Shown one piece after another: positions 1,798 to 62,536 of a stretch of DNA of 64,000 nucleotides (the stretch's first letter is position 1; every line of letters begins with the position of its first letter). Both the position numbers and the translations under genes were made by a program. The stretch comes from an uncultured Dokdonia sp. (lineage in GTDB: Bacteria; Bacteroidota; Bacteroidia; Flavobacteriales; Flavobacteriaceae): positions 24,117 through 88,116 of the forward strand of contig NZ_CALEMI010000159.1 of NCBI RefSeq assembly GCF_937910895.1, given 5' to 3'. The notes below the pieces were generated by a model, which was not told the DNA's origin, searched no databases, and worked only from the letters and a program-made list of their open reading frames with translations.

Positions 1798-1812
1798 GCT
1801 TTCGCGAAAGCG
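1798..1812. repeat. Dispersed palindrome copy 1 (intergenic)
   Basis: GCTTTCGCGAAAGCG, followed by GACTA. Perfect 14-base palindromic core, 22 bases upstream of the SAM hydrolase ATG. Confidence 0.95.
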
Positions 1813-1833
1813 GACTACCCTTCACATATAGCT

Positions 1834-2667
1834 ATGGCGATTATCACATTAACTACCGATTTTGGCGAAAAAGATCACTTCGCGGGTGCTGTAAAAGGGG
1901 CTATTTATAGTGAGCTTAGTGATATTCGTATTGTAGATATCACCCATTCTATATCGCCATTTCACATCACAGAAGCGGCGTATATTATCCAAAATGCGTA
2001 CAAAAATTTTCCAAAAGGTAGTATTCATATTATAGGTGTAGATAGTGAACTGACGCCTGAAACCAATCATATCGCGGTCAAACTAGAAGATCATTATTTT
2101 ATTTGTGCCAATAATGGAATCATCTCGCTCATCACCAGAGACATTGTTCCTCAAGAAATGGTAGAGATTAATATTCATAATAGAGTGACGACTAACTTTA
2201 CGGTACTAGACGTCTTTGTTCAGGCGGCGTGTCATATTGCAAGAGGAGGTACGCTCGCTGTAATCGGGAAGCCTATTTCTGAAATCAAACCGCTTACCGG
2301 CATCCAACCTATCGTTAATAAATCACAAAAACAGATTATCGGAAATGTGATTTATGTTGATAATTATGGAAATGTGGTGAGTAATATCACTCGTAAACTG
2401 TTTGAAAAGGTAGGAAAAGGGCGTGATTTTAAAATAGAAGCCAGACGCACGCAAATTTCTAAAATACATACCTCGTATAGTGATGCCATTAATTTCTCAT
2501 TAGAAAAACACAAGCGAGAAGAAGAGGGCAAAAAACTGGCGATTTTTAATTCTGGTGATTATATAGAACTTGCTATTTATAAAAGTAATCCAAGTACGGT
2601 AGGAAGTGCAGCTACCCTTTTTGGGCTTGACTATCGGGATGCGATTACGATAAACTTTGAAGATTAA
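1834..2667 (+). CDS. SAM hydroxide adenosyltransferase (DUF62)
   Basis: The 277-residue protein belongs to the DUF62 family, which hydrolyses S-adenosylmethionine to adenosine and methionine and is related to fluorinase and the chlorinase SalL. The N-terminal signature TTDFGEKDHFAGAVKG (residues 6-21) carries the conserved Asp and Gly residues. The C-terminal barrel has the VIYVDNYGNVVSNI segment that forms part of the adenosine site. It lacks the insertion typical of fluorinases, so hydrolysis is the likely reaction. The stop codon overlaps the next ATG by one base, which indicates translational coupling with the ABM-fold gene downstream. Confidence 0.9.
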   Translation: MAIITLTTDFGEKDHFAGAVKGAIYSELSDIRIVDITHSISPFHITEAAYIIQNAYKNFPKGSIHIIGVDSELTPETNHIAVKLEDHYFICANNGIISLITRDIVPQEMVEINIHNRVTTNFTVLDVFVQAACHIARGGTLAVIGKPISEIKPLTGIQPIVNKSQKQIIGNVIYVDNYGNVVSNITRKLFEKVGKGRDFKIEARRTQISKIHTSYSDAINFSLEKHKREEEGKKLAIFNSGDYIELAIYKSNPSTVGSAATLFGLDYRDAITINFED

Positions 2668-2963
2668 TGCTCGTACGAATTGTCAAAATGCGCTTTCGCG
2701 AAAGCGAAATAGAAACCTTCTTAACCAATTTTGAGGTGGTCAAAGAAAGCATCAGAGCGTTTCAAGGCTGTCAGTTTTTAGAATTGTATAGAGGGCAGGA
2801 TGATACGCGTATCTTCTTCACCTATAGTTATTGGGATTCTGCCGAAGCTTTAGAAAACTACAGACATTCAGAGTTGTTTAAAGGGGTTTGGGCAACTACA
2901 AAACCCATGTTTTCAGATAAACCTGAAGCTTGGAGTGTAGATAAACTAGCGAGTTTGGAATGA
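2667..2963 (+). CDS. ABM-fold monooxygenase-like protein
   Basis: This 98-residue protein has the antibiotic-biosynthesis-monooxygenase (ABM) ferredoxin-like pattern: MLVRIVKMRF at the start, then FLELYRGQDD, FFTYSYWDSAEALENYRHSELFKGVW. ABM proteins are small dimeric oxygenases or ligand-binding proteins; the substrate cannot be told. Its ATG overlaps the previous stop codon. A full copy of the dispersed palindrome (2691-2706) lies inside the gene and encodes residues 9-13, Arg-Phe-Arg-Glu-Ser, directly after the first beta strand. Confidence 0.85.
   Translation: MLVRIVKMRFRESEIETFLTNFEVVKESIRAFQGCQFLELYRGQDDTRIFFTYSYWDSAEALENYRHSELFKGVWATTKPMFSDKPEAWSVDKLASLE
2691..2706. repeat. Dispersed palindrome copy 2 (in ABM gene)
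   Basis: Perfect CGCTTTCGCGAAAGCG inside a coding region, read in the frame that gives RFRES. Confidence 0.95.
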
Positions 2964-2969
2964 AATTAT

Positions 2970-3374
2970 TTAATATCTAGAGTATTTAGAGACAAACTTA
3001 TTCAATTTTTCTAGGTTTATGATTCCATTCTCACTTATTACTTGCTCTTTAAACATAGTAGCCAATAATTTTTTCCAATTACGACTTAATTTTTCAGATT
3101 CAAATTTAACTCTTTGTTCAAAAAAATTTATTACTATATAATCATCATTATAATAACCTCTAGTACCATTTTCGTTTGATGTCATGTATAAAATTTCATC
3201 GTTATCTTCTAACGAAAATATAGATATCTCAGTTCCTAAACCTTTTCTATCAAACTTGAATACTTCTTCTCCATCTAGAAGAACCTTATCTCCTTTAAAT
3301 TTAACCTTTTGTGCATTGACAGAATTTAAAGTAATCACGCTTAAAGCGAATAAAAGAAAGTATTTAATTTTCAT
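2970..3374 (-). CDS. Hypothetical secreted protein
   Basis: I do not recognise this 134-residue protein. It has a clear signal peptide (MKIKYFLLFALSVITLNSVNAQ) and a mature part rich in short beta-like stretches, beginning KVKFKGDKVLLDGEEVFKFDRK, a pattern common among small periplasmic Bacteroidota proteins. It ends six bases from the convergent ABM gene. It lies 43 bases downstream of the DUF4835 gene on the same strand and may share its transcript. Confidence 0.7.
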   Translation of the reverse strand: MKIKYFLLFALSVITLNSVNAQKVKFKGDKVLLDGEEVFKFDRKGLGTEISIFSLEDNDEILYMTSNENGTRGYYNDDYIVINFFEQRVKFESEKLSRNWKKLLATMFKEQVISENGIINLEKLNKFVSKYSRY

Positions 3375-5510: not shown

Positions 5511-5519
5511 ATATGTAAT

Positions 5520-6802: not shown

Positions 6803-7681
6803 TTAATAAGTTTTAAGATAGACACCTATTTTCTGACTTAACGGTATGCTGGCTTTCACAAGAGGTAATCTTACGTGATCTTCACAAAGATTCAATTGTG
6901 ATAATAATGATTTGATTCCTGCTGGATTTCCTTCTTCAAAAATAAGATCTATTCCTGGCATGATTTGATAATGTGTTGTATACGCTTTCGCGAAAGCGCC
7001 CTCTAACCCATTCCTAATCATTCCTGAAAATGATTGTGTCAATCCCTGTCCTATTACAGAAATCACGCCATCACCTCCTGCAGAAATCATAGGCAATGCC
7101 AACATATCATCACCCGAAATAACCAAAAAATCTTCTGGTCGATCTTTTAATAAACGTAAGGCTTGTGTGATGTTGCCCGCTGCTTCTTTGATCGCTATAA
7201 TATTTTTAAAGTCGCTGGCGAGACGTAACGTAGTTGCCGCTTCCATATTACTCCCCGTGCGCGAAGGCACGTTATACATAATAATGGGAAGAGAAGATGC
7301 CTCTGAAATTGCCTTATAATGTGCATAAATCCCTTCTTGCGAAGGTCTGTTGTAATAAGGAGACACCGATAGAATTGCATCAAAGCCATCCAAAACGCCG
7401 TCTGTAGAAAGTGCGACTACAATAGCTGCGGTATGATTTCCTCCCAAACCTAAAACGAGTGGTAAGCGTCCTTTATTTACAGATACGATATGCTGTTTGA
7501 TTTGTTTTTTTTCTTCCTCAGAAAGTGTAGCACTCTCGGCAGTAGTACCTAAAGCCACTAGATAATCAGTTCCTTGATTTATGTTGTGTTCAATAAGTCG
7601 TGTGAGTCCATCAAAATCGATAGACAAATCTTCATTAAAAGGAGTAATCAGGGCGACTCCTGTACCACGGAAGGATTGCAT
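6803..7681 (-). CDS. dapA: 4-hydroxy-tetrahydrodipicolinate synthase
   Basis: DapA condenses pyruvate with aspartate semialdehyde in lysine and diaminopimelate synthesis. The 292-residue TIM barrel shows the pyruvate-binding GTTAES (45-50), Tyr110, Tyr136 and Arg141 in YNVPSRTG, and the Schiff-base Lys165 in AIKEAAGN. A full copy of the dispersed palindrome (6983-6998) encodes AFAKA at residues 229-233, in a surface region far from the active site. The gene starts one base after the DUF6913 gene and forms an operon with it. Confidence 0.95.
   Translation of the reverse strand: MQSFRGTGVALITPFNEDLSIDFDGLTRLIEHNINQGTDYLVALGTTAESATLSEEEKKQIKQHIVSVNKGRLPLVLGLGGNHTAAIVVALSTDGVLDGFDAILSVSPYYNRPSQEGIYAHYKAISEASSLPIIMYNVPSRTGSNMEAATTLRLASDFKNIIAIKEAAGNITQALRLLKDRPEDFLVISGDDMLALPMISAGGDGVISVIGQGLTQSFSGMIRNGLEGAFAKAYTTHYQIMPGIDLIFEEGNPAGIKSLLSQLNLCEDHVRLPLVKASIPLSQKIGVYLKTY
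6983..6998. repeat. Dispersed palindrome copy 3 (in dapA)
   Basis: Perfect CGCTTTCGCGAAAGCG, read as AFAKA at residues 229-233 of DapA. Confidence 0.95.
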
Positions 7682-11804: not shown

Positions 11805-14110
<2,306 letters not shown>

Positions 14111-18257: not shown

Positions 18258-18272
18258 GCTTTCGCGAAAGCG
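18258..18272. repeat. Dispersed palindrome copy 4 (intergenic)
   Basis: GCTTTCGCGAAAGCG followed by TACTC, between the EamA and YigZ genes. Confidence 0.95.
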
Positions 18273-22189: not shown

Positions 22190-22205
22190 CGCTTTCGCGA
22201 AAGCG
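22190..22205. repeat. Dispersed palindrome copy 5 (intergenic)
   Basis: Perfect CGCTTTCGCGAAAGCG flanked by GTA and TAA, 38 bases before the phosphatase ATG. Confidence 0.95.
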
Positions 22206-25187: not shown

Positions 25188-25933
25188 ATTATAAGCCTTT
25201 TGTAGTTTAATTCTATTCCTTTACTATCAAATCTCGAAATAAGAAAAATTTTATCGTAACTAGATGATAGCTTTGGGTACTGTCCTAAATCAATAAGAGT
25301 ATTTTTATCAACCCTACTGAATATATAATCGACTAAAATCAACCAATTCTTTTCAAAAGAGATTGAATCTAAATTATCTAGTAGTTTTTTTTCTTTTTCA
25401 CGAATAGCAATTTGAAGAGCTTGATATCTTTTTTTTGTAATATCCCAACCTTCATCTTTATCACTACAACCCCCTAAATAAATATTAGTATCTTGATCAT
25501 CACGTGACTCGTATAAAGTGTAACTAAAATTAGACTCAATTGAAACACTTTCACCAAATATCTTATGCTCTATTGTGTTTTTAATAGATTCCTCAAGGTT
25601 TTTGTAAAATATATTATCAGGTTTTAGGGGCCTCTTGTAAGCAACAGAGGCTCTTAAGCAATGATTTAATCCTGTGTCAAATTCATTTAGAAATAAACGC
25701 ATCCTTTTCAAAAAGCTTTCCTTAAAATCCTCTAAAGCAACAAATTTTCCGTCTACTTCTATTTGATAATTTAATCTTCTAACCTCAACTCCAATTTTTC
25801 CTATGGAAAAATCTGGGAAAGTATAACGACCTCTAGGCTCAAAATCAATATTATCATAGCCTAAGTAAAATAAAAACTTTTTTGCTTTTTTTTCATCTTT
25901 ATTCATTCCAAAAAAATCAATCTCACTCCCCAT
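25184..25933 (-). CDS. Unknown protein with PD-(D/E)xK-like motif
   Basis: I do not recognise this protein of about 249 residues. Its N-terminal part reads FPDFSIGKIGVEVRR, which resembles the active-site strand pair of PD-(D/E)xK nucleases with Arg where Lys is usual. The chosen ATG (MGSEIDFFG) overlaps the amidohydrolase stop by 11 bases and has GGAGAGAAGG just before it; an ATG 21 bases further upstream is also possible. It is followed, with a four-base overlap, by the DUF3820 gene. A nucleic-acid function for the pair is only an inference. Confidence 0.6.
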   Translation of the reverse strand: MGSEIDFFGMNKDEKKAKKFLFYLGYDNIDFEPRGRYTFPDFSIGKIGVEVRRLNYQIEVDGKFVALEDFKESFLKRMRLFLNEFDTGLNHCLRASVAYKRPLKPDNIFYKNLEESIKNTIEHKIFGESVSIESNFSYTLYESRDDQDTNIYLGGCSDKDEGWDITKKRYQALQIAIREKEKKLLDNLDSISFEKNWLILVDYIFSRVDKNTLIDLGQYPKLSSSYDKIFLISRFDSKGIELNYKRLII

Positions 25934-27551
25934 ACACCTTCTCTCCACCAACATAAGTCGCTTTGACTTCTAGGTTGGGGATTTTGTCTTCGTCTACGGT
26001 CATAATATCTTGATCCATGATAATAAAGTCAGCGAGTTTTCCTGTTTCAATGCTTCCTTTTTCCCCTTCTTCAAAATTTGAATAGGCCGCCCATATCGTC
26101 ATTCCTTTTAAGGTTTCTTCTCGGGTAAGGGCATTTTCCATTTGATACCCGCCTTCTGGGTATTGTTTTAAATCTTTACGAGCTACCGCTGCATAAAACG
26201 TATAAAATGGGCTGACTTGCTCTACAGGAAAATCAGTTCCTAAAACGACAATCCCTGATTTATTTAATAAATCTTTAAAGGCATACGCCCCTTTAATACG
26301 TGCTGCTCCTACTCTATCTTCTGCCCAATACATATCACTGGTGGCGTGTGTCGGTTGTACGGATGGAATAATCTTTTGATTAAAAAAATCAAAATCTCCT
26401 TGAGAAACTACTTGTGCGTGTTCTACCTTCCATCGTGGGTCTTCTATAGTTTGCAAGGCTTCTTTGTAGGCTCTTAATACCACTACATTAGCACTATCCC
26501 CTATCGCATGGGTATTCATTTGAAAACCAGCTCCTGCAATTCGCTTTGAGAGGTTTTGAATTTCTGACACTGGTGTAATCATTGCTCCAAAATGTCCGTC
26601 TTTATCAGTATACGGTTCTTTTAAAGCAGCACCTCTAGAACCCAAAGCGCCATCTCCATATACTTTTACAGAACGTACATTGAGATAGTCTGTTTTTACT
26701 TTTCCTGAGGTTAAATAATGATCTAGGTTTTCTGGTTTGTTACTAATCATAGCATAGACACGCATCTTTAAATCGCCAGCCGTTTGTAGACTGTCGATCA
26801 ACTCGATAATAGATTTATCGAGTCCTGCATCATTTACCGTAGTTAATCCGTAGGAGAAACATACTTCTTGCGCCCCTTTTAGGGATGCTATATTTTGTGA
26901 TCTACTTGCTTTTGGCATGACAGCGTCTACTAGTTCTTGCGGTCGGTCTACCAATACACCTGTAATCTTTCCATCTTCTTTGACAATTTCTCCTCCGGCT
27001 ACAGTGGTTGCTTCGGTAATTCTTGCAAGGTATAAGGCTTTTTGATTGACTAGATAGGCATGACCATCTACACGCTCTAATGCCACCGGTAGATTTGGAA
27101 ATAAGGCATCTAGTTTTTCTTTGGTAGGGAATTCCTTAACGTCCCAGTCGTTTTGATCCCATCCTCTTCCTCTTAAGAAGGTAGTGGCTGGGTTTGCTTT
27201 CGCGAAAGCGGACACCCGCTCCAACACTTCATCATAACTTGTTGTACCGACAAGATCTACGACTTGCAGATTTTGACCTAATCCGTAAAAATGACAGTGT
27301 CCATCAATGAGTCCTGGCAAGACCGTTTTTCCAAAAGCATCCACAACTTCTGGGGCGGTATAGGCTTCTGTAATTTCTTGTGTGGTGCCTACAGCGACAA
27401 ATTTTCCGTCTTTGATGGCAAAGGATTCCGCTTTCGCGAAAGCGTCATTCACCGTATATACCGTTGCATTGACAACAATAAGGTCTACTTCTTGTTTTGT
27501 AGTACAAGAGATTGTAAACGTAAGTAGGAGTAAAAAAGTAAAGATTCGCAT
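25923..27551 (-). CDS. Amidohydrolase lipoprotein (YtcJ-like)
   Basis: The 542-residue protein has a lipobox (FTISC) and a YtcJ-type amidohydrolase domain: the metal-binding HCHFYGLG near residue 85, WKVEHAQVVS, IPSVQPTHATSDMYWAEDRVG, VLGTDFPVEQVSPFYTFYAAV and a closing composite beta-domain (LADFIIMDQDI). It probably hydrolyses an amide or ester substrate in the periplasm or at the outer membrane; the substrate is unknown. Two full palindrome copies lie in frame, both read as AFAKA, 219 bases apart, near residues 38 and 116. Confidence 0.88.
   Translation of the reverse strand: MRIFTFLLLLTFTISCTTKQEVDLIVVNATVYTVNDAFAKAESFAIKDGKFVAVGTTQEITEAYTAPEVVDAFGKTVLPGLIDGHCHFYGLGQNLQVVDLVGTTSYDEVLERVSAFAKANPATTFLRGRGWDQNDWDVKEFPTKEKLDALFPNLPVALERVDGHAYLVNQKALYLARITEATTVAGGEIVKEDGKITGVLVDRPQELVDAVMPKASRSQNIASLKGAQEVCFSYGLTTVNDAGLDKSIIELIDSLQTAGDLKMRVYAMISNKPENLDHYLTSGKVKTDYLNVRSVKVYGDGALGSRGAALKEPYTDKDGHFGAMITPVSEIQNLSKRIAGAGFQMNTHAIGDSANVVVLRAYKEALQTIEDPRWKVEHAQVVSQGDFDFFNQKIIPSVQPTHATSDMYWAEDRVGAARIKGAYAFKDLLNKSGIVVLGTDFPVEQVSPFYTFYAAVARKDLKQYPEGGYQMENALTREETLKGMTIWAAYSNFEEGEKGSIETGKLADFIIMDQDIMTVDEDKIPNLEVKATYVGGEKVYGE
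27196..27210. repeat. Dispersed palindrome copy 6 (in amidohydrolase)
   Basis: GCTTTCGCGAAAGCG followed by GACAC, read as AFAKA in the amidohydrolase. Confidence 0.95.
27429..27444. repeat. Dispersed palindrome copy 7 (in amidohydrolase)
   Basis: Perfect CGCTTTCGCGAAAGCG, read as AFAKA near the N-terminus of the same gene. Confidence 0.95.
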
Positions 27552-30490: not shown

Positions 30491-33400
30491 TTAGTTACCG
30501 CCTTCTTCTATAGAAGCGTTGGTCTTGGCTTCGTTTGTCTTAATAATAGCGAGTTGTTGCTGTGCTTCTTTTACAATAGCTGGAAAGTCTGAAAAGTTGG
30601 TAATCACACTTTCCAAAATATAGGTAGCTTGATAGGCGTCTTCCAAAGCATAAAAGTTTTTTGCCATAAGCACAAGCCCTTTGGCACCAAATTCCTTATA
30701 TCCGCTATAATCTCTTGCTAGTACTTGTACAGTCGTATTGGATCCTTTAAAATCATTGGCTTTATGTTTAAAGTAGGCATCGTAGTACAATGCTTCTGCA
30801 GCGAGTGCACCTGTAGCGATGGTTTGCACCTTCGCATAGGCTGTTTTTGCACGATCTTCATCGCCTGTTTTAATCGAAGCTCTTGCAATAATCACTTGGG
30901 CATCACTTTTTACAGCATTATCGATTTTTGTATTGGTCAATACTTTTTCTGCATACGTAACGGCATCTGTATAATTTTCTAGCTCATAGTGAGACTTCAT
31001 CAGATTCGATTGTGCAAAGATGACATTCTGTGGAAAATCGGCTTCTGTTTCTAAGCGTTTTAAAACAGGAATTGCTTTTGCATAGGCTTTCTGGGTTAAG
31101 AATACTTGTCCTAACCGCGCGAGGGCTTGCTCTGTAAATTCAGATCGTTCTTTGGCGATCACAAACTGATAATGCGGAATGGTTGTGGGATAGTCCGCTT
31201 TCGCGAAAGCGAGTTGACCCAAATAAAAATGGGCTTTCAAAGCATGTTGTCCGTTGGGATAACTTTCTAGGTATTCATCCAGCAAACGTGTGGCTTGCGT
31301 CGCATTATTCTCCAAATATTGTTTTTCTGCCGAAGCATACGCGGCATCATCCAACTCTGCGTCTTCTACATCTATAAAATCGAGTGTACTCACCCATTGT
31401 CCGTACTCATTGACACGTCCTAAGTCTATATAAATAAGTTTTGCAGTGGTGACCGCTTGTAGGGCTTCTGGCGTACCTGGATAATCGGCAGCTACTTTTT
31501 TAAGAATCGTAATGGCTTGATCTGACTGATTGTTATTGTCATAAATCAATGCTTTTTTAAGTAATGCACGAGATACATACGAACTTCCAGAGACTTCACG
31601 CACCAGCTGATCATAGGCTGCAATCGCCTGATCGTTATTTCCTTGAGAGACATATACGTTTCCTAATTCATACAAGGCATCGTCTCTATAACTTGATTTT
31701 GGAAAGCTTTGCGCGAAATTTTTCAACCCATTAATCTTATCTGCATTTCGGTTGACAAATCCGTAACTCATTGATTTTTGAAAAGTGGCATAATCACTAT
31801 CGGTTACATTGATTTCGATAGCTTTGTTATAGGCTTCAAGGGCTGGCCAATATTTACTAGAAATAAAACGGCTATCGCCTAAGCGTAAGTACGCATCATT
31901 GAGACGGACTTGGTCGTTTGTATTTTTTTTTGTGAATTTTTCAAAATATGTCGCTGCATTTTCATAATCTTTATCAGAAAAATAAGCGTATGCTAGATTA
32001 TAATTGAGGTCTTGATATTCTGGTGTTGCAGTAGCGTTGCTGTTTTGCAAATACTGTTTATAGCCTATCACTGCTTCTTTATGATTGCCCAATACATAAT
32101 CAGACTCTGCATTCCAATAGGTGGCTCTTGCGACAAATTGCTCATCTCTAGGTTCTTCTAAAGATTTTTTAAACATGGCTTGGGCGTCTATATAATTTCC
32201 AGCATTATAAAGCTCTACACCTCTGTAAAAAGCTACTTTTTGGTAGGCTACTTTACTTTCAAAAGAGTTATTTTTTTCTAATAACACCAAGGCTTCTTTG
32301 TAGTTTTTTGACGTAATATAAGAATCAATAAGAAGGGCTTCAAACTCTTCTTTTGCGGGCGTATTAGGATATTCCTTGATATAGTTGGCAAGGACTTGAG
32401 GAACGGTTTGGTAGGCATTTCCAATCTCATAACTCAATTTTGCATAGTTCAAACCACTGTCTTCTTTGATTTTTGCATCAAAATCCATTTCTGACGCATT
32501 TTTAAACGCATTTAAGGCTTGCTGCTTTTTATCTGTTTTTAAATAGGATTCTGCTAGATGGTAGTAAGCGTTTTGAGCGACACTGTTTTTACCATCTATA
32601 ATTTTATTAAATTCATTGATCGCGTTTTCATAATCGCCTTGTTTGTAATAGGCATATCCTAACTGGTAGTAATCGGTGTTATTCCACTTTCCTCTTTTTC
32701 CTTTGTATTCTTTTAAATACGGTAAAGCTTCTGCATACTTTTCTTGATTGAAGTAACTTTCCCCTATAATCTTATTGAGTTCTGATTTTTCTTTTGGATT
32801 TGCTGTAGGGAGTTGTGAGGTCCCTTCGGCAATGGCTTGGTCAAATTTTCCTAATTTAAAATTAAGATCGGCTTTAAAGTAAGCGAGTTCTTCTTTGTAA
32901 TCTTCTTTATCTTCTACGGCGTCAAAAAGTTCATCTGCCTCTTGGTAATCATCGCCTTCATACGCCATGAATCCTAAGTAATATTTGGCTTGTGATCCAT
33001 ACTTTTGAGAGTCACGTACACGGTTTAAAAACTTTTTTGCCTGATCATATTGTTTACTTTTATAATAGGAATATCCATTATTAAAATCGAATGTTTCTCT
33101 AGCGCTTCCTGTCAAACTTCCTTCATCAACCAGATCATACCACTTACGAGCATAGGCATATTTTCCATTATCAAAATAAAAAGAAGCGACATCTAGATAT
33201 GCTGAGTTACGCTTAGTACTTGTCGGATATTCATTGACAAAACTTTGCATGAGATTATCGGCTCCTTGTTGATTTAAACGAACAGCTGCATTTGCAATAT
33301 AATAAGCACAATCCCCTTGAATGGTGGTATCATTTGTTTCGTCTTTGACTTCTCCAAATAAGGTTTGTGCTGCGAGATACTGCTGACTATTATAAAGCGA

Positions 33401-34951: not shown

Positions 34952-35302
34952 AAACAGTCTATTTAACGATGTAGCAATTATAAGAAGGAAAATAACAATT
35001 TCATATTTTAGAACAAACTACTATTCTATGGGCGTTGTAATGAGTACGCTTTCGCGAAAGCGTATAAAACTAACATTCCCTATAAAAACTTGATTCAAGT
35101 GCGGTGATCATTAGAAAACCTGTATTTTTATTTCGATTCTTATAAAAAGAACTAAACGAACCAAGAAAAAAGAATTGTGTCTTATCTTTTATTTTATTAT
35201 AAATAAAAGTGAGATAGAAACACATGATTCGTGTTATTTTAGAGTTTACTTTGGTATAATTCATAAGATTTAATCTATTTTTATCGTTAGTTTTAATTCT
35301 AT
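34952..35302. other. Spacer before ftsE
   Basis: A 351-base AT-rich spacer. It holds one palindrome copy (35047-35062). A minus-strand frame at 35070-35309 has atypical composition and overlaps the ftsE start, so I do not call it. Nothing else is recognisable. Confidence 0.5.
35047..35062. repeat. Dispersed palindrome copy 9 (intergenic)
   Basis: Perfect CGCTTTCGCGAAAGCG flanked by GTA and TAT. Confidence 0.95.
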
Positions 35303-40718: not shown

Positions 40719-41549
40719 TTATTTACGTTCCTCGCCAGTAGCTAAGAGTTCTTTATATTTTTTAATTCCTGAAAAGGCTTTTTTTGCTTTCGCGAAAGCG
40801 TACTTAGCCTTAATAATTTGATGCCGTACTAAGAAAAATACATATTTACATACCCAAAGATAGCCCCAAATTCCGTAACATTTATACGCCAAAGCACCTC
40901 TAAGATACAAAAGCCGATCGCTTCCCAAATCCTGTCCAGAACTTACATCTGGATGTGTAAGAATCACAGCAGGCACAAAATAAGCAGGGAGTTTTGCTTT
41001 CATAACATTACGCATAAATACATACTCATTAGCACCACTAAACGTAGCACCCAATCCAAAATGAGGATGATACAACACATCGTTTTCTAACAGTACATCT
41101 TTCTTAAAGCTAATGACGACACCATTTACCGTTTTGTAAGATGAATTGTTATGCTTTATGACATCTGGATATTTTCTAAATAATTCTCCATTTGTTTTGT
41201 TTAATTGAAACGTGATTACAACAGCATCTGGATACGTTTTATATCCTTGGAGTATAATAGATTCTAGATTGGGTACATACAACACGTCATCATCAGCAAC
41301 GAGACATACCTCCCCTATCGCATTCCGAATTGCCATATTACGACTTTGTGGCAAACCACGCTCTTCTGTATTAATCACTCGTACGTTGGGTTGTAACGAT
41401 TGTAATTGCCGAGTTGTATCTGTTTGATTGATAATCAAAATAGCATACATACTATAATCTCCATTAGGAAACATCGCTTCCAAAAATGAAAGATCCGAAC
41501 GAAACATTGTCGATATTAAAATTTCAAAAGGAACAGAAACGGGTTTCAT
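40719..41549 (-). CDS. Family 2-like glycosyltransferase
   Basis: The start is placed at the ATG giving MKPVSVPFEILISTMFRSDL, since the 12 codons before it are not part of the fold. The 276-residue protein shows GLPQSRNMAIRNAIGEVCLVADDDVLYVPN with the DDD metal site. A full palindrome copy near the C-terminus is read as AFAKA (KAKYAFAKAKKAFSG) in a basic tail. It is directly followed by fdtA. It diverges from the next glycosyltransferase gene across only 39 bases. Confidence 0.85.
   Translation of the reverse strand: MKPVSVPFEILISTMFRSDLSFLEAMFPNGDYSMYAILIINQTDTTRQLQSLQPNVRVINTEERGLPQSRNMAIRNAIGEVCLVADDDVLYVPNLESIILQGYKTYPDAVVITFQLNKTNGELFRKYPDVIKHNNSSYKTVNGVVISFKKDVLLENDVLYHPHFGLGATFSGANEYVFMRNVMKAKLPAYFVPAVILTHPDVSSGQDLGSDRLLYLRGALAYKCYGIWGYLWVCKYVFFLVRHQIIKAKYAFAKAKKAFSGIKKYKELLATGEERK
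40786..40800. repeat. Dispersed palindrome copy 10 (in GT gene)
   Basis: GCTTTCGCGAAAGCG followed by TACTTA, read as AFAKA. Confidence 0.95.
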
Positions 41550-45993: not shown

Positions 45994-47094
45994 TTAGTAC
46001 CTATTTAAGATTGAAATCACTCGTGTAATCATAGCCTCATCCATTACAGGACTTAACGGAACACTCAACACTTCCTGATGAATCTTCTCCGTCACAGGAA
46101 AAGAAAGATGCGCATATTCTTGTAACGCTTCTTGCTGATGTGGTGGGATAGGATAATGGATAATCGTACCTATATCATGCTTGGTAAGATAATCACGTAA
46201 ATGATCTCTAGTCTCGCATCGGATCACAAAGAGATGAAACACGTGAGACTCGTCCCCCTTCCAATCGGGAAGTACTAATTTAGGATTCTGTATTTCTTGT
46301 AAATATCGTTTGGCAATGGCACGTCTAAGCTGATTAGCTGTATCCAAATCCCGTAATTTAATTCGCAAAAACAAGGCTTGCACTTCATCCAGACGAGAAT
46401 TGATACCTGTATACACACTCACATAACGCTCTTTAAATCCATAGTTACGATACGATCTCACGACTTCGGCGAGAGCTTCATCATCTGTGGTAATCGCGCC
46501 ACCATCTCCGAGTGCACCGAGATTTTTGGTTGGATAAAAACTAAATCCTGAGGCATCGCCCAAACTTCCGCTGCGTTTCCCTTGAGAGGTCATGGCTCCA
46601 TGAGATTGTGCAGAATCTGTTACGATGTATAAAGAGTTCGCTTTCGCGAAAGCGGACACCTGCTCCATATCGGCTAACTGCCCATAGAGGTGTGTAGGCA
46701 TCATCACTTTGGTCTTTGCTGTCACCTTCTGTTGAAGATCCTCAAAATCAAAATTATAGGTATCTAGATCGGCTTCTACCAATACTGGAATCAATCCTGC
46801 TTGTTGGATTCCTAAAATCGTAGCTATATACGTGTTGGAAGCCACCAATACCTCATCACCTTCTGAGAGTTTTCCTAAGATTTTATAACCCTCCAAAATC
46901 ATTCGTAATGCATCAAGTCCGTTGGCGGTGCCTATACAATATTTTGTACCGCAATAAGTAGCGAATTCCGCTTCAAAAAGGCGGACTTCATCGCCGAGGA
47001 TATACCATCCTTTTTCTAGAAAACTTTTAAATTTCTCCTGAAACTCGGCATCATACGGAGCATTGATCGCACGTAAATCTAAAAACGGAATCAT
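45994..47094 (-). CDS. fdtB: DegT/DnrJ sugar aminotransferase (FdtB-like)
   Basis: The start is the ATG of MIPFLDLRAINAPY, which makes a four-base overlap with the FemAB-like gene; an ATG six bases upstream is possible. The PLP-dependent enzyme has FSFYPTKNLGALGDGGA with the Schiff-base Lys, SRLDEVQALFLRIKL and a His-rich C-terminal end. With the ketoisomerase at 40308 it should make a dTDP-3-amino-3,6-dideoxyhexose. A full palindrome copy is read as AFAKA (QVSAFAKANSLYI), in a normal helix of the fold. Confidence 0.88.
   Translation of the reverse strand: MIPFLDLRAINAPYDAEFQEKFKSFLEKGWYILGDEVRLFEAEFATYCGTKYCIGTANGLDALRMILEGYKILGKLSEGDEVLVASNTYIATILGIQQAGLIPVLVEADLDTYNFDFEDLQQKVTAKTKVMMPTHLYGQLADMEQVSAFAKANSLYIVTDSAQSHGAMTSQGKRSGSLGDASGFSFYPTKNLGALGDGGAITTDDEALAEVVRSYRNYGFKERYVSVYTGINSRLDEVQALFLRIKLRDLDTANQLRRAIAKRYLQEIQNPKLVLPDWKGDESHVFHLFVIRCETRDHLRDYLTKHDIGTIIHYPIPPHQQEALQEYAHLSFPVTEKIHQEVLSVPLSPVMDEAMITRVISILNRY
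46639..46654. repeat. Dispersed palindrome copy 11 (in fdtB)
   Basis: Perfect CGCTTTCGCGAAAGCG followed by GACACC, read as AFAKA. Confidence 0.95.
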
Positions 47095-49548: not shown

Positions 49549-50928
49549 TTATCTTTTTTTAAAGAGATAAAGAATCCTAGATGTTCCTGGAATAGTTTCT
49601 TTTTTTTCTAACTCAAAATAAGGCGTAAACCCTGCTTCAAAGTTAACTGAATTATAAAAATCAAAGTGATCTATAAACTCTCGCTTACGCACTAATAATG
49701 ACGTCACCCAAGAGTCTTCTCGCTCTGGAAATTCAATGATGAGATACTTTGAAAAGGAAGCAAAAAATACCGCCGACTTTTCAAAAGGTACATTTCCAGA
49801 TAAGGTGATGTGGTGGATGAGTGCTAATGCCATCGTAACATCTGGTGCATACGCCTGTAATCGGTTTAAGAGCGAACTCCGCTCTGTATTATTAAATCCA
49901 ATATTGGGTACGGGTTGTAAAACGTCGCATACAAAAGCAAGCATGTTTTGCTCTTTATTTTTTTGCGCTTTCGCGAAATTTTGATCCACCGCATTCGCAT
50001 CTATATCGGTGACGATAAGGTGTGCGTCACTCTCTAATGCACGTGCAAAGGTCCCGTCATTACCGCCAACATCAATAATGCGTTTTGCGGCTAGAGGTGC
50101 TACCCAAGACTTGATAAGCTTCTTCTTAGCTTCAAAAGCCTGTGCATCGTAATTTGTTTTTGTGTAATAATCTCCCCACTCCGTAGCTTCTTGAAGTGAC
50201 AACTTTTTTATGTAGTCATAAAGACTATCTAAAATAGTATTTTGTGCTTTTAACGAAAGTCTAGCTACCTTAGACTCTGCCTTATAATCTTCACTGTGCT
50301 TTCCTTCCATCTTAGCCAGCAAGTGGATGTTTGTATATAGCGTAGAACTCAGTTTGCTCTTTCCTGGTAATAAAGAAGCAATCAGTTTTACAGGAATCCC
50401 ATCAATATGGGTTTGCATCATTTTAAACATATCGGTGCCGTGGTATTTTGCCAATCCCAAGGGACCTAAAAAATGAGTGATAAACTGTTTATAAGCTCGC
50501 CACGGCGTTCCTTCTTCATAAAAATCAAAGGATAGGGTATCTATAAAAATAGGACTTCCTTCAAACAGCGTTACATTATATGCAGAGGCATCCTTCAGGA
50601 TAAAACCTTTGGACAAGGCATATTTCTGGATACGTAAAGTAAGTAATGCGGCTTGTTTATATTGTTCAAAACTCCATTCATACGGATATGTAATAAACGG
50701 AATCACTTCGGGCGTGATGATGATTTCGGTATCAGATACCGAGGTCTCTGTGTGGGGAATGAGAATCCGCTTTCGCGAAAGCGTACTAAAAAAACCTTCC
50801 TCAGAAAGTTGCTTGTATTGTTTAAAATAAATGGGGAATATTCTTCTTCTTAATACGTCTCCATCATAAAAAAGATGTCCTGATGGATCTCTAAAAGAAG
50901 CTTCGTGTACTGTATTCTTACTTGTCAT
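49549..50928 (-). CDS. SAM-dependent methyltransferase
   Basis: The 459-residue protein has a long N-terminal region (SFRDPSGHLFYDGDVLRRRI; KDASAYNVTLFEGSPIFIDTLSFDF) and a C-terminal Rossmann fold with RIIDVGGNDGTFARAL and MALALIHHITLSGNVPF. The N-terminal part resembles nodulation/LPS-type methyltransferases acting on carbohydrate. Two palindromes are in the gene: a full one read as LSRKR (STLSRKRILIP) and a half one read as NFAKAQ. It overlaps the small membrane gene by 11 bases. Confidence 0.82.
   Translation of the reverse strand: MTSKNTVHEASFRDPSGHLFYDGDVLRRRIFPIYFKQYKQLSEEGFFSTLSRKRILIPHTETSVSDTEIIITPEVIPFITYPYEWSFEQYKQAALLTLRIQKYALSKGFILKDASAYNVTLFEGSPIFIDTLSFDFYEEGTPWRAYKQFITHFLGPLGLAKYHGTDMFKMMQTHIDGIPVKLIASLLPGKSKLSSTLYTNIHLLAKMEGKHSEDYKAESKVARLSLKAQNTILDSLYDYIKKLSLQEATEWGDYYTKTNYDAQAFEAKKKLIKSWVAPLAAKRIIDVGGNDGTFARALESDAHLIVTDIDANAVDQNFAKAQKNKEQNMLAFVCDVLQPVPNIGFNNTERSSLLNRLQAYAPDVTMALALIHHITLSGNVPFEKSAVFFASFSKYLIIEFPEREDSWVTSLLVRKREFIDHFDFYNSVNFEAGFTPYFELEKKETIPGTSRILYLFKKR
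49966..49978. repeat. Partial palindrome (in methyltransferase)
   Basis: CGCTTTCGCGAAA followed by TTTTG; right arm lost; read as NFAKA. Confidence 0.7.
50768..50783. repeat. Dispersed palindrome copy 12 (in methyltransferase)
   Basis: Perfect CGCTTTCGCGAAAGCG followed by TACTA, read in the third frame as LSRKR. Confidence 0.95.
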
Positions 50929-55234: not shown

Positions 55235-55250
55235 CGCTTTCGCGAAAGCG
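55235..55250. repeat. Dispersed palindrome copy 13 (intergenic)
   Basis: Perfect CGCTTTCGCGAAAGCG flanked by TTC and AAT, 24 bases downstream of the argS stop. Confidence 0.95.
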
Positions 55251-57335: not shown

Positions 57336-60300
57336 ATGAGCAAAAAATCCTCCGATCAAAATAATATAGATAAACCTACGGCAAACGATGTAAAATGCTG
57401 GGATAGCAATGGTGCTACAAAAGTAGTTACGCAACGTCTGAAAGAGATGTTTGTTGAAATGGGACAAAAAACACGGATTGAAAACGGGCAGAAACCTGCC
57501 GAGAGAGCCGTCTTTAGAAAACAACACGGAATTGCGTATGCTAATTTTGTGATCAATGAAGACATTCCTAAAAAATATAAAGTGGGCATATTTGCTGGCG
57601 ATTCGTATGAATGTGCGATGAGATTTTCTAGTGATACGGCACCTACCTCAACCGACTTGCATACCACGATGGGAGTTGGCTTAAAACTCTTTGGCGTAAA
57701 AGGAAGAAATTTATTTGGAGAAGGAGATACAGCCGATTTTATCTTTCAAAATATCGATCGGTTCTTTGCAAAAGACGCACAACAAATGTGTGCATTTACC
57801 ACAGCAGGCGTTGTCGATAAAGATTATGATGCATATATCAACAAACATCCAGAAGTTGGCAGGATTCTAGCTGCCATGGCGAAGGAAGAAGGTAGTTGCT
57901 TAAGTGCTGACTATTGGGCAATTCTTCCGTTTCAATTAGGAAAAACACAGATTGTAAAATACCGTTTGGTTCCAGAAGAAGGTACACCAAAAGGCGCTCC
58001 TTTTGACGATCCTAATTACCTGAAACTAGATTTAGAAAAACGGCTTCGTCAGGGCGATGCTACATTTAGATTTGAAGTGCAGTTACGCACCAATGACAAA
58101 ACCATGCCGCTGGATGATGCACAAGTTGTCTGGAGTACCAAAGAAAGTCCATACGTTTGTATTGCAAAATTACATATCCCACAACAGGATGTGACAGCGA
58201 TTGGTCAAGCTGAATTTGGTTCTAATTTATCCTTTAATATTTGGAGAACGCTAGCAGCTCACAAACCCTTAGGTTCTATAGCCGATGTGCGTAAGGATGT
58301 CTATGAAGCGAGTGCCAATGCACGACATCAAGCCAATGGACAACAATTGCAGGAACCGAAACAACGATGTCCTTTTTTTCAAGGAAACACCGATGAAGAT
58401 GATGATTGTATCGTCAGAGCAGGCATCTACCCTCCTATCGGAATCACACGTGTTGGGAATAGTGAAAACGAATACTATATAGGACCACTCGTTGATGTTC
58501 CAGAAGTAAAAGAAGATGACTATGCGTATAGAGATAAAACAGGTGCTTTAAAACGACAGGCAGCTCAATTTAGAATCTACGGATTTAATGCGGCTGGAAA
58601 AGCGGTAAAAGAATTAACTGCCGATAATGCAAAAATTACGTGGCATGCCCATTTAGCCAATCAAAAAGCATCTTGGTATCAGTTTCAAATTGCCTTAGAT
58701 ATTCCTGATGCTAGCAATCCAGATATTCCCCCTTCGCTTTTGCGAAATATTGACGTAAAAGATAGAAGCACTTTATTCATAGATGGAGGTGCGCAAAGTA
58801 TTTCAAAACCAAATGTTAAGACAGGATATACCTTTGAAGGAAAGTTTCAATCGAAAGATGTGTATTTAGGTGAAATGCATACGGATGAAAAAGGACGTTT
58901 AATCATGTTAGGGGGTCATGGGAAATCTGAAAACTTAAAAGGAGATATTGCGGTTACTTTTGCTAATAATGAAGGTTGGTATGACGATACTTCGGATGGT
59001 CCTATTACTGCCGATGTAGCATATAAAGGCGTAAAACTCAATGTAGACCCAGCATGGGTTGTTTGTGCACCACCAGATTATGCGCCGCTACAAAAATCGG
59101 TACGTACGATGTGGGATTTAATGCGAGATGTTGCTGTACGAGCGGGAATGCTAGAACGTCCTGCAAGACCATCGTTTACCAAAGATATTTTACCAATTTT
59201 TGAACGGATGACCAACTTACAATGGGTAAACGCAGGATTTGCGGGTGCTTTTGGTTGGGGAGGACAATTTGATTATACCTCTGAACAATGGGTAAAAAGA
59301 CTTGGAGATCCGTCGTCTGCTAATTATGAAATGCGTCGTACGATTTCAAATAATTTTCGTCGTTATGAGGTTTCTGGTGCAGAAGCTCCGCAATTATGGC
59401 CGTGGATGTATGGAGATGCGATTGCCATTCCAACCAATGGATCGGTACGTCAACACTCGACCTTATCCAGATTACAATTGAGCTTTTTAGATCAATGGGT
59501 CAAAGGGGATTTTGATGCAGATTTTGAAGAGGTAAGTACTCAAGTTATTACAGATATTGATCAATTATCAGTTGCAGATCAACCTGATATGTTGACGAAA
59601 GCAGCGATGGATTTCTGTCTTGCAGATGCGTTCCATCCTGGCTGTGAGATGACCTGGCCTATGCGTACGTCTGGAATGTACTCAGCGCCGTTTAGATTAA
59701 AACATGCGCCAAAAACACCACAAACGGATACAAGCTATTATGGCTCTACCATGGATAGCGGTGTGATTACGATGGCGGCTGGACCGTTGTTAGGCGGCCA
59801 AGTGCCTGGAGGAATTACACGTTGGATGGCTATTCCTTGGCAGACAGACACGGCAAGTTGTAGAGATGGATACACTAAATCGTATGATCCGTATTTACCA
59901 ACCTTCTGGCCTGCAAGAGTGCCTAATAATATCCTGAGTGAAGAACGCTATAAAGAAGCGATTGATCCAAAGTTGTCTGAAGAAACCCGTAGAGAAGCCT
60001 TTGCGTATCGTTATTTCTGGTTAGATGATTTACCAATGGATGGGGAAGCGCCAACGCAAACCAACCAGATCAATAAAATGGTCAAGTACTTTGATAAATT
60101 AGCTGTCGTTCAAGCAAGACCTGGGGTTACAGATAATCCAAATTTCCCGCCAGAAATGCAAATAGGTGTTGTCCCTAGTGAAAAGCAACAAGCCGCCTTA
60201 CTTACTGAGACCATGAAAGACTTAAAGAAAGTATTGAGCAGCAAAAAACGAATCGGTAAAAAAGAGCAAGACTTATTAGATACTACGATGAAGCATCTCT

Positions 60301-60554
60301 CGCATAAAAGCCTATTAAACGAGCAATTCTTAATGGAAGGTGCAAAAGATCAATTACTCACATTAATTGAAACTGAAGTCACAGAAGATTATAAAATCAC
60401 AGCTAGTATCGAACGGTTGTTACATCTATTAGCTTCAAAAACACATAAAGCAGATCAGGTAAAAACGGTACAACATCAAAAACAGCCAAGAACATCTGTA
60501 GGTGTTCCAGAAAAAATGGTGCGTTTTGAGAGGTTCATACCAAAAGAATATTAG
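57336..60554 (+). CDS. Catalase-like / LodA quinoprotein oxidase fusion
   Basis: The 1072-residue protein joins two enzyme types. Residues 1-340 form a catalase-family domain: FRKQHGIAYANF with His64 at the distal site, GIFAGDSYECAMRFSSD, VGLKLFGVKG, and RTLAAHKPLGSIADVRKDVYEASANARH. Residues 355-985 match the LodA/GoxA amino-acid oxidases: CIVRAGIYPPIGITRVGNS, FCLADAFHPGCEMTW (Cys761 or Cys770) and GGITRWMAIPWQTD (Trp830 or Trp835), the region supplying the Cys and Trp of the CTQ cofactor. A helical tail follows. The oxidase would make H2O2 and the fused domain could remove it. No signal peptide is seen, as in other LodA proteins. Confidence 0.85.
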   Translation: MSKKSSDQNNIDKPTANDVKCWDSNGATKVVTQRLKEMFVEMGQKTRIENGQKPAERAVFRKQHGIAYANFVINEDIPKKYKVGIFAGDSYECAMRFSSDTAPTSTDLHTTMGVGLKLFGVKGRNLFGEGDTADFIFQNIDRFFAKDAQQMCAFTTAGVVDKDYDAYINKHPEVGRILAAMAKEEGSCLSADYWAILPFQLGKTQIVKYRLVPEEGTPKGAPFDDPNYLKLDLEKRLRQGDATFRFEVQLRTNDKTMPLDDAQVVWSTKESPYVCIAKLHIPQQDVTAIGQAEFGSNLSFNIWRTLAAHKPLGSIADVRKDVYEASANARHQANGQQLQEPKQRCPFFQGNTDEDDDCIVRAGIYPPIGITRVGNSENEYYIGPLVDVPEVKEDDYAYRDKTGALKRQAAQFRIYGFNAAGKAVKELTADNAKITWHAHLANQKASWYQFQIALDIPDASNPDIPPSLLRNIDVKDRSTLFIDGGAQSISKPNVKTGYTFEGKFQSKDVYLGEMHTDEKGRLIMLGGHGKSENLKGDIAVTFANNEGWYDDTSDGPITADVAYKGVKLNVDPAWVVCAPPDYAPLQKSVRTMWDLMRDVAVRAGMLERPARPSFTKDILPIFERMTNLQWVNAGFAGAFGWGGQFDYTSEQWVKRLGDPSSANYEMRRTISNNFRRYEVSGAEAPQLWPWMYGDAIAIPTNGSVRQHSTLSRLQLSFLDQWVKGDFDADFEEVSTQVITDIDQLSVADQPDMLTKAAMDFCLADAFHPGCEMTWPMRTSGMYSAPFRLKHAPKTPQTDTSYYGSTMDSGVITMAAGPLLGGQVPGGITRWMAIPWQTDTASCRDGYTKSYDPYLPTFWPARVPNNILSEERYKEAIDPKLSEETRREAFAYRYFWLDDLPMDGEAPTQTNQINKMVKYFDKLAVVQARPGVTDNPNFPPEMQIGVVPSEKQQAALLTETMKDLKKVLSSKKRIGKKEQDLLDTTMKHLSHKSLLNEQFLMEGAKDQLLTLIETEVTEDYKITASIERLLHLLASKTHKADQVKTVQHQKQPRTSVGVPEKMVRFERFIPKEY

Positions 60555-60557
60555 TCC

Positions 60558-61676
60558 TTGGTACAGACAGAAACAGACATTCTTATTATAGGTGGCGGTA
60601 TTGCAGGTTGCATTGCCGCCATCTCTTTGGTAGATACACACACCGTTACTTTAATTGATAAATTAGAGCACCCAAAAGAACGTATTGGGGAATCGTTAGC
60701 ACCCGCTACACAAAGAATCCTTAGAGAACTTCATTTAGTAGACGATCTTCAATCTCATCAAGAATCCCTTTACATTCAGAATCTGGGAATGCAATCCTAT
60801 TGGGGAAGCGACCAAGTACATATTGTAGATCACTTACGCAATCCTGACGGCTTAAGTAAAAGTTTAGATAGAAAAGCGTTTGAAGAATTTCTTAGGGAAT
60901 CAGCGGTTTCTAGAGGTGTGCACTGTATCTGGCATACCAAGTTACATCATAGTAGATTTGAAGCCAACCAATGGCTCGTCACTACAAAATCAGTTGACCA
61001 ACAAGAACAGTGCATCAAAGCCAAATTTGTCATAGACGCCACAGGTCGACAATCTCACTTTGCAAGAAGTCAAGGTATCAAACGCTTATCTATTGACAAA
61101 CTAATAGCTTGTTGGGTCACACTCCCAAATACAGAAGAAAATAAGATGAGTACCATTACTGCGACGGAGCATGGCTGGTGGTACACCGCTGTCGTTCCGC
61201 AAAACAAACGTGTCATTGCTTTTCAAACAGATTCAGATCTAGTAGATAAAAGTACTTTTAAAGATTTGAATTCTTTTCTTAAGCTTGCTAAAGACACTAC
61301 TCAAATCAGCGCTATTTTAGATAAAAATAAAGCAGCTATCAAGTTTCATGGGACTGTTGCTGCAAATTCCACGCGACTAGAACAGGTTGTCGGACAACAA
61401 TGGGCTGCTTTAGGAGATGCTGCTATTAGCTTTGATCCGCTCTCTTCACAAGGGATGTTTCATGCTATGGCAAGTGCCATGCAATTAAAAAACCTACTTA
61501 TAGATTCAGCGATTATTCATAGACATACCAATCAAAAAGAAGCTGTATTTCAAAAGAGGTATACACTACAGATCCATGCGATATGGGATCAATATCTGCA
61601 TCATAAGAATATATTTTACAAAGCCGAAACACGTTGGAAAGAAAGCCCTTTCTGGAAGAGAAGACATCTCAATTAA
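60558..61676 (+). CDS. LodB-like flavoprotein for CTQ maturation
   Basis: The 372-residue protein starts with TTG three bases after the oxidase stop, so the two are translationally coupled. It has the dinucleotide motif IIGGGIAGCIAAISL (9-23), a GDAAISFDPLSSQGMFHAMASAM segment and the halogenase-like layout of LodB. LodB proteins are needed to form the cysteine tryptophylquinone cofactor of the partner oxidase in the cytoplasm. It lacks the Lys and WxWxIP motifs of active tryptophan halogenases. Confidence 0.85.
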   Translation: MVQTETDILIIGGGIAGCIAAISLVDTHTVTLIDKLEHPKERIGESLAPATQRILRELHLVDDLQSHQESLYIQNLGMQSYWGSDQVHIVDHLRNPDGLSKSLDRKAFEEFLRESAVSRGVHCIWHTKLHHSRFEANQWLVTTKSVDQQEQCIKAKFVIDATGRQSHFARSQGIKRLSIDKLIACWVTLPNTEENKMSTITATEHGWWYTAVVPQNKRVIAFQTDSDLVDKSTFKDLNSFLKLAKDTTQISAILDKNKAAIKFHGTVAANSTRLEQVVGQQWAALGDAAISFDPLSSQGMFHAMASAMQLKNLLIDSAIIHRHTNQKEAVFQKRYTLQIHAIWDQYLHHKNIFYKAETRWKESPFWKRRHLN

Positions 61677-61754
61677 TTATGATTCAAAACGTCTTCACTT
61701 AGTAAGAACAACAATTTATAGATGCGTTTTTCGTATTTTTATACAAAAAAGAAA

Positions 61755-62180
61755 ATGCTATTAAATGTATCATACAACAATCCAGAAATTCGAAAAAAGA
61801 TAGACGCAGAAGTAGGGAAACCTTTTCCTCTTTTTGAGCGTATCAAACAAGGAGGTATCGGGATAGGACATCTTATTATTACCTCTTCAAGTATTGAAAT
61901 TCAAAATCTACTCGCACTCGATAAGTATCGAAATAAATGTAACATTGAGTTACGTCCTAACGGAATTATCGTAGGCTTTCGCTCTTTGTTAGAATCTTAT
62001 GCGCTTGTGATTCCGTATTGGAAACTCACCATCTACAAAGGGAAATCTGAAGAGTATAGTATCTACAGAGATACGTATTGCATCAAAATTGAAGCAAAAA
62101 ATAAAAATGTACATCAGTTTATAAAACGTGTACTGACAGAAAAAGAAAAACAGTCTTTACCGACTATAGAAGATATATAA
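61755..62180 (+). CDS. Hypothetical protein after lodAB
   Basis: The start is placed at MLLNVSYNNPEIRKKIDAEVG; an in-frame ATG 33 bases upstream would add an unlikely MRFSYFYTKKK. The 141-residue protein contains a beta-rich central part (GIGHLIITSSSIEIQNLLALD, NGIIVGFRSLLESYALVIPYWKLTIYKG) and a basic end. It has no signal peptide and I do not recognise the family. It is 78 bases after the LodB gene and may belong to the same transcription unit. Confidence 0.6.
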   Translation: MLLNVSYNNPEIRKKIDAEVGKPFPLFERIKQGGIGIGHLIITSSSIEIQNLLALDKYRNKCNIELRPNGIIVGFRSLLESYALVIPYWKLTIYKGKSEEYSIYRDTYCIKIEAKNKNVHQFIKRVLTEKEKQSLPTIEDI

Positions 62181-62536
62181 TCTTGTTGTATGCGTGTATC
62201 CGCTTTCGCGAAAGCGGACTTAGTAAAACATGAAAAGAGAGGTATCAGGAAAGGGTAAGAATACCATAAAACTTATACCTAACCATTGATCTGCCAAGTT
62301 GTTTTAACTAATCGCTATTCTATTTTCATTTTATACTATATGTGGAGCTATAAACTTTGCTCTTTATTTTGTACCTTATAGTATTCATTTTTAACAAACT
62401 CGAATTTTATATAAAACATCGTCCTGATTGTTTTGTATACTGCTGTAGTAGAATAGTAGTATATGATTACCGCAGTGATGATTTCTCAATATACCATTCG
62501 GATTAAAAACCAATGTTACACTAAAACACCAAAATT
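62181..62536. other. Spacer before 62537 gene
   Basis: A 356-base AT-rich spacer with one palindrome copy (62201-62216) near its start. I see no RNA gene and no clear promoter. Confidence 0.5.
62201..62216. repeat. Dispersed palindrome copy 14 (intergenic)
   Basis: Perfect CGCTTTCGCGAAAGCG followed by GACTTA, 20 bases after the stop at 62180. Confidence 0.95.

Follow-up and report, generated by a model that had tools for sequence, protein, structure and literature searches.

The palindrome in the window and across genomes

The DNA analyzed here, which we call the window, is a stretch of 64,000 nucleotides from contig NZ_CALEMI010000159.1 of an uncultured Dokdonia sp. (Flavobacteriaceae). Scattered among its predicted genes, which include ligA, an amidohydrolase gene, and genes for a TPR protein and a DegT-type aminotransferase, are 14 perfect copies of the 14-letter palindrome GCTTTCGCGAAAGC, where a first-order Markov model predicts 1.7e-4 copies. 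Ten of them are full 16-mers, and in the other four the first C is replaced by T. With up to three mismatches allowed there were 16 matches, against a mean of 0.08 in the shuffled window. Genes were called with a simple gene caller written for this analysis; by these predictions six copies are intergenic and eight genic, and six of the genic copies are read in the frame AFAKA. All 14 positions and the six-to-eight split had been named in a first-pass annotation of the window, and both held. Its close pair, given as 220 bp apart, measured 234 bp. Of its three degenerate copies, those at 12111 and 49966 are recognizable as forms with one arm, and at 13803 only GCTTTCGCG is left. The sites are listed below with their state in Dokdonia pacifica DSM 25597, whose ligase is 92% identical to that of the window, and in other genomes, to which we refer by number.

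1798..1811, full palindrome in the spacer of two diverging genes; matched exactly in D. pacifica
2692..2705, full palindrome within gene 2667-2963 (+), read in frame RFRES; matched exactly in D. pacifica
6984..6997, full palindrome within gene 6803-7681 (-, DHDPS family), read in frame AFAKA; matched exactly in D. pacifica, G208, G199, G202, G203, and G205 but not in G206
12112..12123, one-arm form GCTTTCGCGAAA in ligA
13803..13811, remnant GCTTTCGCG in the upstream region of ligA, about 10 bp away; a perfect copy stands there in D. pacifica
18258..18271, full palindrome, intergenic between tandem genes; identical in D. pacifica
22191..22204, full palindrome, intergenic between tandem genes; ACTTTCTAGAAAGC in D. 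pacifica
27196..27209, full palindrome at codon 115 of the amidohydrolase gene 25923-27551 (-), read in frame AFAKA; matched exactly in D. pacifica, G213, and G215 but not in G199, G205, or G206
27430..27443, full palindrome at codon 37 of the same amidohydrolase gene, 25923-27551 (-), frame AFAKA; identical in five other Dokdonia genomes, not in G215; at the same codon in another genus (G190)
31197..31210, full palindrome in the TPR protein gene 30491-33511 (-), frame AFAKA; identical in D. pacifica
35048..35061, full palindrome, intergenic between tandem genes; unaligned to D. pacifica
40786..40799, full palindrome within gene 40719-41549 (-), read in frame AFAKA; matched exactly in D. pacifica
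46640..46653, full palindrome in the DegT-type aminotransferase gene 45994-47100 (-), frame AFAKA; identical in D. pacifica, with G199 and G190 having a copy at that codon too
49967..49978, one-arm form GCTTTCGCGAAA in gene 49549-50928
50769..50782, full palindrome within the same gene, 49549-50928 (-), read in frame LSRKR; unaligned to D. pacifica
55236..55249, full palindrome in the spacer of two converging genes; unaligned to D. pacifica
62202..62215, full palindrome, intergenic between tandem genes; unaligned to D. pacifica

The palindrome is neither a chance accumulation nor a peculiarity of the window, two possibilities that had been raised with the first-pass annotation. The source genome (4,809,286 bases) contains 878 copies of GCTTTCGCGAAAGC, where about 0.013 are expected (first-order Markov model, window composition), and 0 copies of the reversed word, which served as control. 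Each of 18 Dokdonia genomes examined (18/18) carries between 369 and 905 copies. Matches were found in 44 of 199 genomes of the family, and the only rich ones were the source genome (G000, 878), G010 (578), and G190 (408); the next had 17. In a second sample, which covered 219 genera of the family with 395 genomes, 52 genomes matched the 16-mer and only three genera were rich: two Dokdonia genomes had 549 and 630 copies, three genomes of the genus of G010 had 495, 579, and 448, and G190 had 153, with at most 13 in each remaining matching genome. Across the phylum, 22 of 394 genomes had a match, and none except the source genome exceeded 6 copies. Being far above expectation genome-wide, and genic as well as intergenic, the word belongs among the highly iterated palindromes (HIPs).

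In 80 named ligA loci no other comparably iterated palindrome was found (the search was repeated without loci shorter than 12 kb), only a different 8-mer. This non-palindromic word, CTTCGGAA, occurred 14 to 16 times per 22 kb, against 0.4 to 0.8 expected, in loci of Aequorivita, Ulvibacter, Psychroserpens, and Arcticiflavibacter (L021, L022, L024, L034, and L036, each whole; also L018, L020, L023, and L031). In Dokdonia it is scarce: the G199 stretches contain 6 copies against an expected 23. The 8-mer could be a further word iterated in particular lineages.

Elsewhere in the window, an L-lysine epsilon-oxidase (LodA) gene and, after it, a 372-amino-acid (aa) reading frame that may encode a LodB-type partner lie at 57336-61676.

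Form, spacing, and conservation of the sites

Many copies had been noted to extend beyond the core, possibly to 22 bases. The extended consensus is indeed the 22-base site TTACGCTTTCGCGAAAGCGTAA, and on either side the preferences for particular bases die away only some 30 bp out. We analyzed the flanks of 347 sites in the Dokdonia genome G199, which was sampled over 1.28 of its 3.29 Mb (other rich genomes, 64 to 200 kb). The 5' side was depleted of C and the 3' side of G; A was preferred at positions -5 and -15, and T was preferred at -3, -4, -7, -9, -10, and -13. Intergenic sites showed this depletion, and so, to a somewhat lesser degree, did genic sites in each of the three reading frames. 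There was no excess of left-right pairing in the flanks beyond 3 bp (2242 pairs at positions 2 to 20, against 2267 +- 34 when shuffled); position by position, pairing was in excess at position 2 alone (z, 3.4) and in deficit at positions 5 and 6 (z, about -2). Mirror-image flanks without extended pairing of the arms mean that the palindrome is a symmetric double-stranded DNA element rather than an RNA hairpin.

The word is sharply defined. In five Dokdonia genomes (1.6 Mb) there were 416 perfect copies, 34 with one mismatch, and 82 with two, many of the last being without one outer GC. When the inner 10-mer TTTCGCGAAA was counted by its GC arms in about 1.66 Mb (the pieces of the five genomes plus the window), 431 copies had both arms, 83 had one, and 0 had neither, with 1.5 copies expected in total. 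The ratio of perfect to one-mismatch copies, 12.2, corresponds to a 2Nes of about 6.2 by the mutation-selection formula of PMC2397512, compared with about 4.3 for the neisserial DNA uptake sequence (DUS), whose DUS/DUS-1 ratio in that paper is about 2.4. Of 120 copies of TTCGCGAA in 400 kb of G199, 107 were the full 14-mer. The word is less strict in G190, where 408 of the 559 10-mers are part of a full 14-mer.

Sites are about five-fold enriched between genes. Of 346 sites in G199, 183 were intergenic: 118 in tandem spacers (24 expected), 34 in convergent spacers (4.4), and 31 in divergent spacers (8.3). The remaining 163 were genic, where 309 were expected. They are also evenly spaced. Over the 347 sites the mean distance was 3.68 kb with a coefficient of variation (CV) of 0.67, compared with 1.08 +- 0.06 in a null that keeps the coding/intergenic split; the lowest CV in 1000 null runs was not below 0.88. 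Distances shorter than 1 kb numbered 17, against 98 in the null, and those of 2 to 4 kb numbered 158, against 75. The evenness remarked on in the first-pass annotation is merely suggestive in the window alone (CV, 0.56; 2 distances below 1 kb versus 2.5 expected) and strong on the G199 sites. Smaller samples, of 14 to 43 sites each including the window, went in the same direction (CVs of 0.76 in G190, 0.55 in G010, 0.46 in G206, and 0.53 in G205). Three stretches of G199 had densities of 275, 262, and 275 sites per Mb.

One-arm sites, 58 in the G199 stretches, tended to stand away from full sites: 17% were within 1 kb of one, against 50% under uniform placement, and gaps longer than 6 kb, which make up 29% of the DNA, held 27 of the 58. 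The largest gaps in G199 coincided with giant genes of 4388, 5053, and 4340 codons, with the ATP synthase region, inside which there were three one-arm sites, and with a region containing an integrase and a HipA-like gene. Giant genes without any full copy lie on contig C1 of G199 at 288426-301589, 305125-320283, and 1594900-1607919.

The sites are conserved in place. Between the window and D. pacifica (79.8% identity), 9 of 10 aligned sites were identical, compared with 7.0% of random aligned 14-mers; four window sites were unaligned. Among five other Dokdonia genomes, each pair being counted in both directions, 128 of 160 aligned sites were identical in pairs at 75 to 80% identity (random 14-mers, 3 to 10%; 69 of 229 comparisons, being unaligned, were left out), as were 124 of 133 in pairs at 85 to 94% identity (random, 26 to 52%). 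There was no clear bump or dip in identity around conserved sites. Of the 41 aligned places that were not identical, 26 had no gap and 15 had one.

The amidohydrolase gene was compared in 21 of 28 genomes searched; three had no match, and G007 (a frame with a stop) and G009, G014, and G040 (with distant matches only) were excluded. At codon 37 the site was present in five other Dokdonia genomes and in G190, and absent from G215, G010, and each of the 13 poor genomes examined (13/13); in one of these the letters there are GCTTTCAGTAAAGC. No gap at this codon was seen in any of the 21 genomes; some distant genomes were one codon short near codon 115. As judged from such alignments, sites within genes arise by substitution, and between genes insertion or deletion is possible, 15 of the 41 nonidentical places being gapped. 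A mobile palindrome, such as a repetitive extragenic palindromic (REP) element or an insertion element, was rejected for the sites inside genes, where site-free places differ by substitutions and codon 37 showed no gap. Where both genera have a site in the same gene, it stood at the same codon in 3 of 5 pairs for G190 and in 0 of 2 for G010. Such shared codons looked like ancestry; repeated gain is possible too, because at one of these places a poor genus has letters that nearly match.

Copies in other genera and candidate readers

We also examined 20 stretches from poor genera, chosen for holding perfect copies. Thirteen share related DNA with another stretch, at up to 96% identity between genera, which suggests that they are mobile islands. 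Perfect and one-mismatch copies in the 20 stretches numbered 40 and 12, against 416 and 34 in Dokdonia (Fisher P, 0.001); the relatively greater share of single mismatches in poor hosts suggests that upkeep of the palindrome depends on something in the host. The genes of the G087 island encode RND pumps, P-type metal ATPases, an HlyD-type protein, and a multicopper oxidase. Metal-resistance islands of this kind in other genera suggest that the palindrome may mark DNA once resident in the rich hosts. At least 120 stretches of viral contigs had a match, most of them a single one among the matches listed, and 30-mers of the consensus had no match in phages and three chance-level matches in plasmids.

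Two observations concern the islands themselves. In loci L176-L179, L380-L387, and L391 the palindrome recurs every few kilobases, like the stamp of an earlier host. A 616-aa ParB-like protein is encoded in 5 of 18 genomes tested, and in G012 and G160 it lies on the same contig as an island.

Known DNA-binding and DNA-processing systems were searched for, mostly in draft genomes, in which a missing gene is no proof of absence. Each of 18 genomes, rich and poor alike, has one chromosomal ParB of about 300 aa, and no additional chromosomal paralogue of that size was found in them. G199 has a near-canonical parS cluster (1 or 2 mismatches) at 738-741 kb, separate from the palindrome. These results support the statement of the first-pass annotation that the word is not parS, and on the same grounds a ParB/Noc site is unsupported. 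RecC (PF04257) was found in 0 of 18 genomes with a profile that detects the Escherichia coli control; AddAB was not searched for. With RecC found in none of the 18, a Chi site of RecBCD is unsupported. The PilB-type pilus motor domain (T2SSE) scored over the cut-off in 4 of 9 Dokdonia genomes, in neither of 2 other rich genomes, and in 5 of 31 others. The source genome encodes such a domain at C113:43669-44787 (L346), and 5 of the 9 Dokdonia genomes lack it. ComEC was present in 19 of 19 genomes (13 of 13 rich, 6 of 6 poor) and, occurring in rich and poor alike, is uninformative.

A possible chromosome-organizing site and its rivals

We tentatively favor a reading, plausible though short of probable, in which GCTTTCGCGAAAGC is a double-stranded DNA site bound by a putative homodimeric protein that would organize the chromosome every few kilobases. 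From the symmetry of the site, the reader would be a dimer, one half of which could tolerate a poorer half-site; we count for this model that one GC arm of TTTCGCGAAA can be dispensed with and never both. The scarcity of short distances suggests that a second site within about 1 kb would add little, and by the spacing each site might serve a few kilobases as an anchor, a loader, or the base of a loop. Point mutation at near-matching places would create sites, and selection would keep them as long as the reader is present. We also count for the model that all 18 Dokdonia genomes carry the sites with or without a pilus motor, that the sites are even, similarly dense in the three G199 stretches, and conserved in place, that their flanks mirror each other in every context, and that single mismatches are commoner in poor hosts. 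A fuller version, about which we are more doubtful, would make the palindrome a chromosome ruler in Dokdonia and two other flavobacterial genera: a putative homodimer would nucleate at hundreds of even, near-invariant palindromes, with one-arm sites as weaker posts, and sequence alone would divide the chromosome into domains of a few kilobases.

Several results weigh against a chromosome-organizing role. Copy number was weakly related to genome size (Spearman coefficient, 0.40; P, 0.18; 13 genomes), and in the same genomes site density fell with size (-0.70; P, 0.008), which is unexpected if every stretch of the chromosome requires a site. Full and one-arm sites taken together were barely more even than after random addition (CV, 0.68 versus 0.72; 5% of the nulls reached so low a value). 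The 14-mer carries 27.3 bits of information where 11.8 bits would suffice for one site per 3.7 kb, an excess that suits a self-label as well or better. Finally, no reader protein for the palindrome was found.

Such a self-label, the rival we consider possible but rather unlikely, would serve DNA uptake and recombination in the manner of the DUS of Neisseria and the uptake signal sequences (USS) of Haemophilus, except that it is palindromic: fragments carrying the word would be taken up preferentially, and uptake would spread and preserve the copies. The word is iterated, sharp, conserved in place, located in permissive places, even, and restricted by lineage, close to the DUS pattern as set out in the text of PMC2397512, and the ratio of perfect to one-mismatch copies and the 2Nes given above, beside those of DUS, speak for this reading, as do the excess information and the presence of ComEC in every rich genome, although ComEC is in every poor one too. 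Riemerella columbina, moreover, is reported to prefer its own DNA (PMC7965970). On the other side, the pilus motor was not over the cut-off in 7 of 11 rich genomes tested, and G199, one of those without it, keeps 899 sharp copies. DUS and USS words, furthermore, are not palindromic. As to recently acquired DNA, site density falls with genome size, and in the single comparison of the window with D. pacifica unaligned DNA was not depleted of sites (7 in 32.4 kb, against 20 in 99.2 kb aligned). Thus, of the earlier suggestion of an uptake word, the statistical part fits, and uptake by a known pilus-type machine is disfavored.

The density of one site per 3.7 kb would also suit a Chi-like signal that stops a DNA-end nuclease and loads RecA, the palindrome serving both directions and GT-rich 5' flanks favoring RecA; the 5' flanks are G/T rich on both strands, and RecA prefers GT-rich DNA. 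We regard this as improbable, with RecC found in none of the 18 genomes and no sign of RecBCD, with known Chi sites being short and asymmetric, and with the word rich in only three of 219 genera although DNA-end-processing nucleases are widespread. It is very improbable that the word is left behind by a DNA methyltransferase that acts on TCGCGA or TTCGCGAA inside it, together with biased mismatch repair, a mechanism that has been proposed for cyanobacteria. A palindrome that is iterated and contains a 6- or 8-mer word has its precedent in the cyanobacterial HIP1 (PMC4390886), but here the short inner word is not itself enriched, most copies of TTCGCGAA being the full 14-mer; TTTCGCGAAA never occurs stripped of both arms; and neither even spacing nor flank rules over 30 bp follow from methylation. 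As RNA, the palindrome could fold into a short hairpin, and its enrichment is strongest between converging genes, as would suit a transcription terminator or another RNA element. That reading is scarcely credible given copies in genes in all three frames and flanks without compensatory pairing. An intrinsic terminator in particular was rejected: the 5' side is T-rich and the 3' side A-rich with no T run, the reverse of a terminator, and nearly half of the sites are in genes.

For an iterated short word, the palindrome is unusually sharp and regular, and near relatives of its carriers are without it. These relatives make it testable whether chromosome organization, DNA exchange, or repair exerts the selection. 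In the open-access literature, judged by titles and the beginnings of abstracts (subscription papers and preprints lay outside the search), no such site was described around TTTCGCGAAA or for Dokdonia together with a palindrome, and no paper paired an iterated palindrome with flavobacteria.

Among known systems, HIP1 (GCGATCGC), to which the first-pass annotation likened the palindrome, is similarly highly iterated, lineage restricted, and sometimes extended beyond its core (PMC4390886). The likeness holds for the class and fails for the word: the letters here are unrelated to GCGATCGC or a derivative of it, which in a HIP1-type system would go together with GATC/CGATCG methyltransferases, and the site is longer (14 to 22 bp versus 8 bp), sharp, and even, with long symmetric flank preferences. 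The observed/expected ratio is about 1e5 here, a figure that grows with word length, versus 55 to 228 for HIP1, and the main text of PMC4390886 contains no mention of Bacteroidetes, Flavobact, or Dokdonia. DUS and USS, as the text of PMC2397512 describes them, share sharpness, conservation in place, permissive positions, and lineage specificity with the palindrome. Unlike them, the word here is palindromic and occurs once per 3.7 kb, in rich genomes in 7 of 11 of which no pilus motor was found. Chi, at about one per 4 to 5 kb, is over-represented as the palindrome is, but Chi is short and directional. The matS site of MatP is likewise a palindromic chromosome-organizing site, confined to the terminus in a few dozen copies, whereas the palindrome had similar densities in the three stretches of G199. 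The parS sites of ParB and the Noc sites are, like the palindrome, sharp palindromes of 14 to 16 bp, read by a homodimer (putative in our case) that organizes chromosomes; here the word and the spacing of its half-sites are different, and the copies number in the hundreds across the whole chromosome.

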